Shown one piece after another: positions 4,556-7,468 of a DNA stretch of 35,819 bases. Source of the stretch: Acidipila sp. (GTDB lineage: Bacteria; Acidobacteriota; Terriglobia; Acidiferrales; UBA7541). Every line of letters begins with the position of its first letter. Positions within the stretch are counted from its first letter, which is position 1. Both the position numbers and the translations under genes were made by a program. The stretch spans positions 1 through 35,819 of the forward strand of contig JAAFGT010000039.1 in the NCBI GenBank assembly GCA_010365215.1, given 5' to 3'. The notes under the pieces were generated by a model. The model worked only from the letters and a program-made list of their open reading frames with translations. It did no database searches and was not told the DNA's origin.

Positions 4556-5950
4556 CTAGAAGGCGCCGATGGCGGCGCGAATGGCGGCGGCAATGGATTC
4601 GGTAAAGCGCTCCACGTCGTCCTGCTGTTCGGCTTCGACCATTACGCGCGCCAGCGATTCGGTGCCGGAATAGCGCAGCACGATCCGCCCGCGGTTGCCG
4701 AGCGTGCGGTTGGCTTCGGCCAGCGCCCAGGCCACGCCAGGCAGCCCTTCGAGCGGCGGCTTTTCCTTGACCCGCACATTGAGAATTTTCTGCGGGTAGA
4801 CGGAGAGGCCCGAGGTAAGCATCTCGAGCGGCCCCTTCATGGAGACCAAGCTAGCGATGATCAGCGCCGTGAGCAGCCCATCACCGGTGACCGAATCGTC
4901 GAGAAAAATAACGTGGCCGGACTGTTCGCCGCCAAGATTGGCTCCCAGGCGCAGCATTTCTTCGAGCACGTAACGGTCGCCCACCGCGGCGCGCACCAGG
5001 CGAATACCTTCGCTGGCCAGCACGCGCTCCAGGCCAAGATTGCTCATGGTGGTGCCAACGACTACATCGCCCTTGAGCGTGCCCGCGGCCTTCATGTGCC
5101 GTGCCGCAGCCAGCATCACGCCGTCGCCATCCACGATGCGGCCCATGCCCGACGAAAAAATGGCGCGATCGGCGTCGCCGTCGAAAGCCACGCCGAGCGC
5201 GGCATGCGAATCCACTACCTGCTTGCGAAGACTCTCGGGATAGAGCGAGCCGCAATCCACGTTGATGTTGCGCCCGTCAGGCTCGGCGTTGATGGCCATC
5301 ACCTGCGCGCCAAGCGAGCGAAAGAGCTGCGGGCCCAACGCGCTGGCCGCGCCATTGGCGCAGTCCAACACCAGCTTCATGCCTTCCAGCTTTGCGCCGG
5401 GCAGCGCGAAGCCGCGCAGCCACGCCAGATATTGTTCGTCGAGCGAAGTATCAGCTTCGAGCGCGACACGCTGAGCAACTTTCCGAGCAACTTCGGGAGC
5501 AACTTCGGGAGAGCTCCCGGGGGCTGCTCCCGTGGCCGCGCGGCGCGCCACGATTTCGCGCTCCAGCTCGAGCTCCACTTCGTCGGAAAATTTCGTTCCG
5601 CTTCCGGAGAAAAGCTTGACGCCGTTATCGGTGAAGGGATTATGCGAGGCGGAGATAACCACGCCCGCGGAAAATCCTTTCAGCCGAACCAGGCAGGCCA
5701 CGCCCGGCGTGGAGATGACTCCGGCGAAGGCGATTTCCGCGCCGGCCGCTGCGGCGCCGCACGCAATCTGCTGCGCCAGCTGGGGGCTGGAGAGGCGCGG
5801 ATCCATACCAATCAGAATGCGCGGGCGCGGCTGTTTCTTGCGCAGGTGCGAGCCCAGCGCCTCGCCAATAGCGATGAGCGTGGCCTCGTCCAGCGGAGCC
5901 ACGCCAGGGGTGCCGCGAATTCCATCAGTTCCAAACAGGTGTCTAGCCAT
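4556..5950 (-). CDS. glmM: Phosphoglucosamine mutase
   Basis: Converts glucosamine-6-phosphate to glucosamine-1-phosphate on the way to UDP-GlcNAc and peptidoglycan. The 464-residue protein opens with the GlmM signature (M)ARHLFGTDGIRG. The phosphoserine loop VISASHNP has active Ser102, the metal loop FDGDADR lies at about 256-262, and the phosphate-binding loop RYSGTES is near the C-terminus. The ATG at 5950 fits the family start; an upstream TTG adds only seven residues. A 4-residue repeat (PEVA-type) from a 12-bp DNA repeat lengthens a linker near residues 147-160. It is the last gene of cdaA-cdaR-glmM, a conserved arrangement in which CdaA activity is tuned by CdaR and GlmM. Confidence 0.97.
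   Translation of the reverse strand: MARHLFGTDGIRGTPGVAPLDEATLIAIGEALGSHLRKKQPRPRILIGMDPRLSSPQLAQQIACGAAAAGAEIAFAGVISTPGVACLVRLKGFSAGVVISASHNPFTDNGVKLFSGSGTKFSDEVELELEREIVARRAATGAAPGSSPEVAPEVARKVAQRVALEADTSLDEQYLAWLRGFALPGAKLEGMKLVLDCANGAASALGPQLFRSLGAQVMAINAEPDGRNINVDCGSLYPESLRKQVVDSHAALGVAFDGDADRAIFSSGMGRIVDGDGVMLAAARHMKAAGTLKGDVVVGTTMSNLGLERVLASEGIRLVRAAVGDRYVLEEMLRLGANLGGEQSGHVIFLDDSVTGDGLLTALIIASLVSMKGPLEMLTSGLSVYPQKILNVRVKEKPPLEGLPGVAWALAEANRTLGNRGRIVLRYSGTESLARVMVEAEQQDDVERFTESIAAAIRAAIGAF
5475..5510. repeat. 12-bp tandem repeat (3 copies) inside glmM
   Basis: Units at 5475-5486, 5487-5498 and 5499-5510 (GCAACTTCGGGA type; the first is diverged). The period is a multiple of three, giving an in-frame 4-residue repeat in a GlmM linker between domains 1 and 2. 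Confidence 0.8.
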
Positions 5951-5962
5951 AAGCGTGCCGAC

Positions 5963-6004
5963 GTGTAGCAATAAAGGTGTAGCAATAAGCGTGTAGCATT
6001 AAAC
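5963..6004. repeat. 14-bp tandem repeat (3 copies) in the glmM leader
   Basis: Units GTGTAGCAATAAAG, GTGTAGCAATAAGC and GTGTAGCATTAAAC lie end to end, followed by a degenerate GTGCCGCAAT unit. They occupy most of the gap between cdaR and glmM, ending about 12 bases before the glmM ATG. The period is not a multiple of three, which fits non-coding DNA. Confidence 0.85.
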
Positions 6005-6046
6005 GTGCCGCAATGCGGGTAAAATAACACTCCAGTTTAGCACACG

Positions 6047-6442
6047 CTAATGAGGCTCCTGGCGGGGCGACAATTGCAGATGAATTTCCGAAGGCGTAAC
6101 GCGCACCACTTCCGATCCGGGAGGCGTATCGATGGCAGCGGCCGTCAGAAACACTACCTTCTCCCCGGCGGCGCCTCCTTTTAAATCCACACTGACGGCA
6201 AGATCTGCCGGCGTCAACTGGCGCAGCACAGCGGAACGCCCGCGAACGCGCACGCGCACAACGGTGGGAATCTCTCCAGTGATTTCAAGATTTTCGGGAA
6301 TATTGCGAAATTCCAGCGGCACCAGATACCCGATTTCGACGAAAGGCTCCGCGCGATAGGTGGACCACACCAGAAAAGCGAGCACCAGCGCGAGAGATTT
6401 CAGAGCTAAATCGCGTTGGAGAAAATTGCGCAGCGCTTTCAT
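6047..6442 (-). CDS. cdaR: YbbR-domain protein, regulator of diadenylate cyclase
   Basis: Protein of 131 residues with an N-terminal membrane anchor (about residues 13-28, LALKSLALVLAFLVWSTY) followed by a single YbbR domain (VPLEFRNIPENLEI...VRVRGR...LTPADLAVSVDL). YbbR/CdaR proteins are extracytoplasmic modulators of CdaA. Firmicute CdaR has several YbbR repeats, so this is a short version. It lies 36 bases after cdaA and about 100 bases before glmM on the same strand. Confidence 0.85.
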   Translation of the reverse strand: MKALRNFLQRDLALKSLALVLAFLVWSTYRAEPFVEIGYLVPLEFRNIPENLEITGEIPTVVRVRVRGRSAVLRQLTPADLAVSVDLKGGAAGEKVVFLTAAAIDTPPGSEVVRVTPSEIHLQLSPRQEPH

Positions 6443-6478: not shown

Positions 6479-7333
6479 TTACTCCAGAGCCGCCAGCGGT
6501 GAACGGAAACCTTTCACCATATCGGCAAGGCGCGCGGCAAGCTGCTCGGGCGTCAGGTTGGCTTCGAGCTTGCCTTCATGCGCCAGGGCAATCGCGCCGG
6601 TCTGCTCGGAGACAACCACAGCCAGCGCGTCGCTTTCTTCGGTGATACCGATGGCCGCGCGGTGACGCGTGCCGAGCTGGCTGGAGAGTCCCGCGCTGAG
6701 CGCCAGCGGCAGGAAGCAGGCCGCTGCAGCAACGCGACTGCCGCTGATAATTATGGCGCCATCGTGCAGCGGCGATTCCGGCAGGAAGATGGCCAGCAGC
6801 AGGTCGTAGCTGAGCGCAGCGTCCAGCGGCACGCCGCTTTCAATGTAGGTGCGCAGGCCGGTATCGCGCTCGATCACGATCAGCGCGCCGATGCGGCTCT
6901 GCACGAAGTAGCGCACGGCCAGCACGATATCGTCGGCAGCGCCGCCCACATGCGGCGAGGCAAAGCGCTTCCACAGCGGGCCCAGGCCCGCCCGCGCCAG
7001 GCCGCGGCGGATCTCCGGCTGGAAAAGAATCAGCAAGGCCACGGCGAAGTAGGTGAAAAGCGTGGCCAGCAGCCACTCGGTCATTTCCAGGCGCGCCCAG
7101 CGCACCACGCGGTAGAAAATCAGCAGCAGCACCATGGCCGCGGCAATTTGCACGGCGCTGGTGCCGCGCAGCAGCGTCAGCACGTAGTAGATGGCCACCG
7201 CGATCAGCAGGATATCCACGGCCGCGCGCCAGTCCATCCGCGCCGCCGCTTGCCACGGAAACGCAGCCACTACGGCGAAGTCCGCCGTGCCGTTCACCGT
7301 GCTGTTCATTGCTCTGTTCATTGCGCTGTTCAT
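6479..7333 (-). CDS. cdaA: Diadenylate cyclase (c-di-AMP synthase), CdaA type
   Basis: Makes cyclic di-AMP from two ATP. Three hydrophobic helices (WRAAVDILLIAVAIYYVL, AAAMVLLLIFYRVV, WLLATLFTYFAVALLILF) precede the DAC domain. Both catalytic motifs are intact: DGA in SPLHDGAIII (residues about 191-193 with this start) and RHR in GTRHRAAIG (about 223-225). Start choice is uncertain because the N-terminus consists of a 4-residue repeat from a 12-bp DNA repeat with several ATG/GTG options between 7297 and 7345, plus a TTG at 7384; an ATG at 7237 would give the core family length. First gene of cdaA-cdaR-glmM, divergent from the AI-2E transporter gene. Confidence 0.93.
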   Translation of the reverse strand: MNSAMNRAMNSTVNGTADFAVVAAFPWQAAARMDWRAAVDILLIAVAIYYVLTLLRGTSAVQIAAAMVLLLIFYRVVRWARLEMTEWLLATLFTYFAVALLILFQPEIRRGLARAGLGPLWKRFASPHVGGAADDIVLAVRYFVQSRIGALIVIERDTGLRTYIESGVPLDAALSYDLLLAIFLPESPLHDGAIIISGSRVAAAACFLPLALSAGLSSQLGTRHRAAIGITEESDALAVVVSEQTGAIALAHEGKLEANLTPEQLAARLADMVKGFRSPLAALE

Positions 7334-7348
7334 GGCGCTATTCACTGT
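7289..7348. repeat. 12-bp tandem repeat (5 copies) at the cdaA start
   Basis: Five end-to-end 12-bp units (GCTGTTCATTGC type) at 7289, 7301, 7313, 7325 and 7337; the outer two are more diverged. Read on the minus strand they encode NSAM/NRAM/NSTV units and supply several alternative start codons for cdaA. Confidence 0.85.
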
Positions 7349-7468
7349 GCAGCGTAAGGTAGCCCAGCGCTCCTCTGGGAGCAAGCTTACGAGCAGCGCC
7401 GCCAGGGCACGCGATTATGTTATCGTTGCCGTGCCTTATCGCAACTATCTGGCAGGGAATTCCCGATT

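Follow-up and report, generated by a model that had tools for sequence, protein, structure and literature searches.

Three adjacent copies of a 14-bp sequence precede glmM on the minus strand of the window, which is the whole stretch of 35,819 nucleotides analysed here. They raise the question of what a tandem array in front of a cell-wall gene represents: a leader that varies gene expression, a set of protein-binding sites, a translational element under selection, or a minisatellite of little consequence.

The array and its neighbourhood

The genome to which the window belongs was searched in full (4.12 Mb, 91 contigs), and a sample of 369 kb from it, including the window, was used for counts; gene and start calls in this sample are longest-ORF calls and are crude. 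GlmM relatives were sought in 151 genomes, among which no other genome is from the same species or genus as the window. The closest are 68–69% identical, and the named close ones come from metagenome-assembled Acidobacteriota, Terriglobia and Candidatus Acidiferrales. By its named neighbours, the family of relatives belongs to the Acidobacteriota, Terriglobia. From its 88 members 79 were used, the other 9 being without a usable glmM 5′ end. Five order-level loci (L167–L171) are excluded from the counts of motifs, arrays, folds and start codons, and the upstream DNA of 21 further loci (of 80 GlmM relatives), partly duplicates and partly from outside the family, enters no count. The genes and repeat units are the following.

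4556–5950, minus strand: glmM, phosphoglucosamine mutase (TIGR01455, 474.6 bits, cut-off 447.55), ATG at 5950–5948, last base of the stop codon 4556
5963–6004, minus strand: three 14-bp tandem units in the probable glmM leader (Tandem Repeats Finder and unit alignment; sole site in its own genome)
6004–5991, minus strand: array unit 1, GTTTAATGCTACAC
5990–5977, minus strand: array unit 2, GCTTATTGCTACAC
5976–5963, minus strand: array unit 3, CTTTATTGCTACAC
6005–6018, minus strand: degenerate fourth unit, with 7, 9 and 9 of 14 matches to the other three units
6047–6442, minus strand: cdaR-like gene (open reading frame; tblastn relatives in the cdaA–glmM interval of 16 of the 79 family relatives)
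6479–7384, minus strand: cdaA, diadenylate cyclase, start provisional (TIGR00159, 224.7 bits, cut-off 188.8)

The name glmM, as given in the preliminary description, is borne out by the NCBIfam model TIGR01455, whose score was obtained with the ORF starting at TTG 5971. CdaA, encoded upstream of the cdaR-like gene, matches NCBIfam TIGR00159. For the cdaR-like protein NCBIfam gives no match; the name cdaR, also used previously, is supported by the position of the gene together with the tblastn relatives at the same place. In the remaining 63 of the 79 family relatives cdaA and cdaR are absent by tblastn from the fetched DNA before glmM, which has limited flanks, and the cdaA-cdaR-glmM linkage seems to be loose in the family.

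Every pair of the three units is identical at 12 of 14 positions, and the core TGCTACAC is common to all three. With this degree of identity and a degenerate fourth unit, the repeats first described at 5963–6004 are real. They end 12 nucleotides upstream of the glmM ATG (first base 5950), as had been noted, but do not fill most of the spacer, of which they occupy 42 of the 96 bases between the cdaR stop codon and the glmM ATG (5951–6046). Tandem Repeats Finder places the array at 5961–6007, with a period of 14, 3.4 copies and a score of 73, above all other rows (28 in total) in the window. Since none of 50 dinucleotide shuffles of the window reaches this score (best 71), the array exceeds what base composition gives. 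Its head-to-tail units, within the range of about 10–60 bp, partially diverged and above chance expectation, are those of an intergenic minisatellite. In the 369-kb sample 21 rows score at least 73, at 15 distinct places and with periods from 14 to 206, so that tandem arrays are common in the genome and this one is not rare for it. Among the 79 relatives, no comparable array is present in the last 150 nucleotides before glmM, where just four hits of 1.9–2.5 copies are observed. From these comparisons the array is most likely a small lineage-specific minisatellite, ordinary for this genome; as one imperfect minisatellite among many it is by itself of little import.

The regular 14-bp spacing and the core shared by all three units would also suit binding sites for a protein that regulates glmM at the level of DNA or of leader RNA. 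A likeness is provided by the TAACTGA heptamers of marine Beggiatoaceae, direct repeats that occupy the place where a ribosome-binding site is expected, in most cases with no Shine-Dalgarno sequence, and that have been proposed as protein-binding sites near start codons in the part of the work considered (PMC4679880). The same part counts 169 sets of that heptamer in the Beggiatoaceae genome, whereas the glmM array is unique here (PMC4679880). With up to three mismatches allowed, the two-unit pattern is found at no other place in its own genome, and the array thus differs from dispersed regulatory direct repeats, in which the same unit stands before many genes. This disfavours a regulon-wide binding site and leaves the protein-binding array of the preliminary description unsupported in its regulon-type version. 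In addition, the two-unit pattern occurs once in the 88 family relatives versus 10 hits of a reversed control pattern, the 79 relatives have no comparable array before glmM, and the unit is not palindromic as judged by eye. Protein binding is accordingly a distinctly improbable function of the array, though a site used solely at this place is conceivable. A dispersed repeat family was considered separately and rejected, as the two-unit pattern is confined to this place in the genome and the 11-base core of the unit occurs once more, at C20.

A promoter-like motif before glmM

The position of the array with respect to transcription was approached through the following element.

6034–6042, minus strand: extended −10 promoter-like motif TGCTAAACT, found before glmM across the family

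The motif sits four bases past the cdaR stop codon. In its broad form, TGNTANVMT, it is found within the last 130 nucleotides before glmM in 73 of the 79 relatives, as compared with a mean of 1.29 in shuffled sequences (largest of 100 shuffles 5) and none on the other strand. The stricter form TGNTANAMT is present in 62 of 79, with shuffles averaging 0.46 and not exceeding 2. Five of the six relatives without the broad motif contain NGCTACAAT, and one has neither. These five loci (L149, L151, L156, L157 and L158), all from one genus, have NGCTACAAT in place of the TG-extended motif, ending 11–13 nucleotides before the glmM start; at this distance from the ATG, transcription from it would be expected to yield a message with a very short leader or none. 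In all five order-level loci L167–L171 the motif before glmM is absent.

All 16 relatives with cdaR upstream of glmM have the broad motif, as do 57 of the 63 without. Its presence throughout the family, whether or not cdaA and cdaR are found upstream, suggests that glmM is transcribed separately from cdaA-cdaR, and we infer that TGCTAAACT is the glmM promoter. The gene order is that of the cdaA-cdaR-glmM operon of Bacillus subtilis and the dacA-ybbR-glmM operon of Staphylococcus aureus, as given in the available part of PMC3754961. Unlike these operons, the present locus has a family-conserved promoter-like motif directly before glmM, and in the fetched DNA cdaR was found ahead of glmM for no more than 16 of the 79 relatives. 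The sections of PMC3754961 at hand, from the c-di-AMP literature, contain no mention of a glmM promoter that we could find. A promoter-like glmM motif that is kept throughout a family of Acidobacteriota with mostly uncultured members is a useful by-product of the analysis.

In the 369-kb sample, the sense strand of 24.2 kb of upstream DNA contains the pattern TGNTARAMT five times, the glmM site included, and the antisense strand not at all; the 323 kb of coding DNA contain it once. Such sense-strand enrichment upstream of genes is what a general promoter element should show. Within the window the two occurrences are near chance (1.16 expected), and in the sample the occurrences of the six-base core TANAAT ahead of genes are balanced between the strands (19 sense, 17 antisense). 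Scans of 5850–6250 revealed no two-box sigma-70 promoter and no terminator.

Because the family-wide motif is situated upstream of the array, the array is probably part of the 5′ leader of the glmM transcript, and its earlier assignment to the glmM leader is supported to the extent that the motif acts as promoter. A location in a promoter, leader or gene start is shared with contingency loci, the leader in this case being deduced from the conserved motif. From the end of the motif to the ATG the distance has a median of 42 nucleotides in the 73 relatives with the motif (range 21–113). In the window it amounts to 83 nucleotides, or 41 without the three units.

Translation start, leader folding and upstream reading frames

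A start codon is found at the aligned place of ATG 5950 in all 79 family relatives (78 ATG and one GTG). No match of at least three bases to the Shine-Dalgarno consensus is present at positions −22 to −4 of glmM, which confirms the previous remark that no ribosome-binding site is visible; this is not special, however, since 15 of the 79 relatives likewise lack such a match. Matches of at least four bases precede glmM in 29 of 79 relatives, versus 21.4 expected from shuffles. In the 369-kb sample, with its crude starts, a four-base match at −20 to −5 is seen for 38% of 146 ATG genes versus 12% for a control stretch.

The predicted fold of the glmM region from −60 to +38 has an energy of −13.2 kcal/mol, compared with −23.9 kcal/mol when the array is removed. 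The corresponding folds in the family average −24.9 kcal/mol (sd 4.8) and none of the 79 is as weak as that of the window, a comparison that does not concern mRNA throughout, since in relatives position −60 is often upstream of the presumed transcript start. The difference fades near the start codon, with 7 of 79 relatives as weak for −42 to +20 and 26 of 79 for −30 to +20. Relative to its own shuffles, the leader (5920–6032) is only modestly weak (z +1.5), and 186 of 200 shuffles fold at least as well. Rfam yields no match at the gathering score in the whole window, and on this result and the weak fold relative to shuffles a known or strongly structured RNA leader was rejected.

Potential upstream starts lie within the array. 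The in-frame TTG at 5971 would give a GlmM longer by 7 residues, and an ATG in the first unit opens a short reading frame.

5943–5999, minus strand: candidate 18-codon upstream ORF from ATG 5999, whose stop codon overlaps the glmM start (ATGGCTAG)

Only 7 of the 79 relatives have a comparable overlap of an upstream ORF with the glmM start, for which reason the ORF is considered here within rival explanations. Such overlaps may perhaps arise in part from the out-of-frame stop codon that the sequence ATGGCTAR itself supplies. A similar arrangement is known from the MIRU repeats of the mycobacterial senX3-regX3 operon, which are intergenic and contain small ORFs that overlap the neighbouring stop and start codons. 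MIRU repeats differ from the glmM array by their much longer units and by their dispersal over many loci.

A fixed translational element maintained by selection would make use of these features, with the units serving as an open landing zone for ribosomes or providing initiation codons. In variants of this explanation, ribosomes that terminate on the 18-codon upstream ORF reinitiate on glmM, or GlmM is extended by seven residues from TTG 5971. The weakly folded leader, the in-frame TTG and the overlapping upstream ORF are consistent with such an element. Moreover, in Bacteroidetes low-GC, weakly folded leaders accompany the absence of Shine-Dalgarno sequences, according to the portion of PMC3155529 used here. 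However, neither the array nor the upstream ORF is conserved, a start codon aligns with ATG 5950 in every one of the 79 relatives, and no Shine-Dalgarno sequence is seen by eye ahead of the upstream start codons. An element under selection is therefore rather unlikely.

The array could alternatively act as a level- or phase-varying leader, in which slippage alters the number of units and with it the output of glmM. Its location within the probable leader would permit this, as would the upstream ORF with a stop codon overlapping the glmM start; because 14 is not divisible by 3, gain or loss of a unit would shift the frame of ATG 5999 and TTG 5985 relative to glmM. On the other hand, there are just three units, every pair of which differs at 2 of 14 positions, unlike known hypervariable arrays, and the overlapping upstream ORF is found in only 7 of 79 relatives. 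Contingency loci have near-identical units in copies enough to slip often, while here three units share 12 of 14 bases and a fourth matches them at 7–9 of 14; units so few and diverged disfavour fast copy-number switching. In addition, bacteria in which glmM has been studied cannot, or can hardly, do without it, and it is thus a poor target for an off switch. A precedent exists in the heptanucleotide array of Haemophilus influenzae hmw1A, which is similarly located between a functional promoter (P2) and the start codon, in the mRNA leader, and in which rising copy number lowers expression, as far as the part of PMC8262952 considered describes it. The hmw1A array comprises 13–24 copies of 7-bp units in the strains and constructs covered by that part, for which variation and effect were measured (PMC8262952). 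The glmM array, in contrast, has just three 14-bp units, which have diverged, and precedes a housekeeping gene; it is known here from the sequence of one genome. Taken together, a varying leader is unlikely. Should the number of units vary nonetheless, a central cell-wall gene would be tuned by repeats, an unusual situation. A combined model, in which an expansion of the start region re-frames the upstream starts by its unit number and so sets upstream-ORF termination at, or read-in to, glmM, is highly improbable; if true, such a re-framing leader would couple slippage to the supply of cell-wall precursors.

Origin of the array and other repeats

The units resemble the start region of glmM itself.

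5937–5957, minus strand: glmM start region including the ATG, resembling the array stretch 5993–5975 (alignment and shuffles)

When 5993–5975 is aligned with 5957–5937, 18 of 19 bases are matched, with one gap of 2 nucleotides. The score is attained in 3 of 5000 cases when either side is shuffled, and by 3 of the 11,895 remaining minus-strand 30-mers in the window, figures that are optimistic because the similarity was spotted by eye ahead of testing. The resemblance points to a local duplication around the glmM start codon as the likely origin of the array. Tandem copies of a promoter box were also considered and rejected, as the 8-base match of TGCTACAC to TGCTAAAC is equalled in score by 1599 of 3000 shuffles.

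Judged from the sequence, it is fairly probable that the array is a minisatellite derived from local duplication, which lengthens a weakly folded glmM leader and is near-neutral or a mild fixed modifier. Slippage would have caused a local tandem duplication around the glmM start codon, after which the units decayed. The resulting leader would be weakly folded and about 42 nucleotides longer than the ancestral one, and we propose that its length and weak folding give ribosomes easy access to the ATG without a Shine-Dalgarno sequence. The array would then probably be near-neutral or modify glmM translation mildly and in a fixed manner, rather than act as a switch, and its effect on translation is expected to be at most mild and fixed.

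A second repeat is found at the provisional start of cdaA, where a 12-bp tandem repeat (7301–7344 of the window, minus strand) is translated as MNSAMNSAMNRAMNS and provides several in-frame ATG codons at intervals of 12 nucleotides. It is not seen in the stretches before the cdaA match of 19 relatives (16 from the family and 3 from the order, two of the latter being incomplete). With the glmM-leader array, two genes of one cluster thus have start-codon repeats. Elsewhere in the same genome, at the end of contig C33 (L180, 1–420), repeats of about 36 bp contain conserved parts such as TTGGGTTTCT and GACACGCT, with variable stretches between them.
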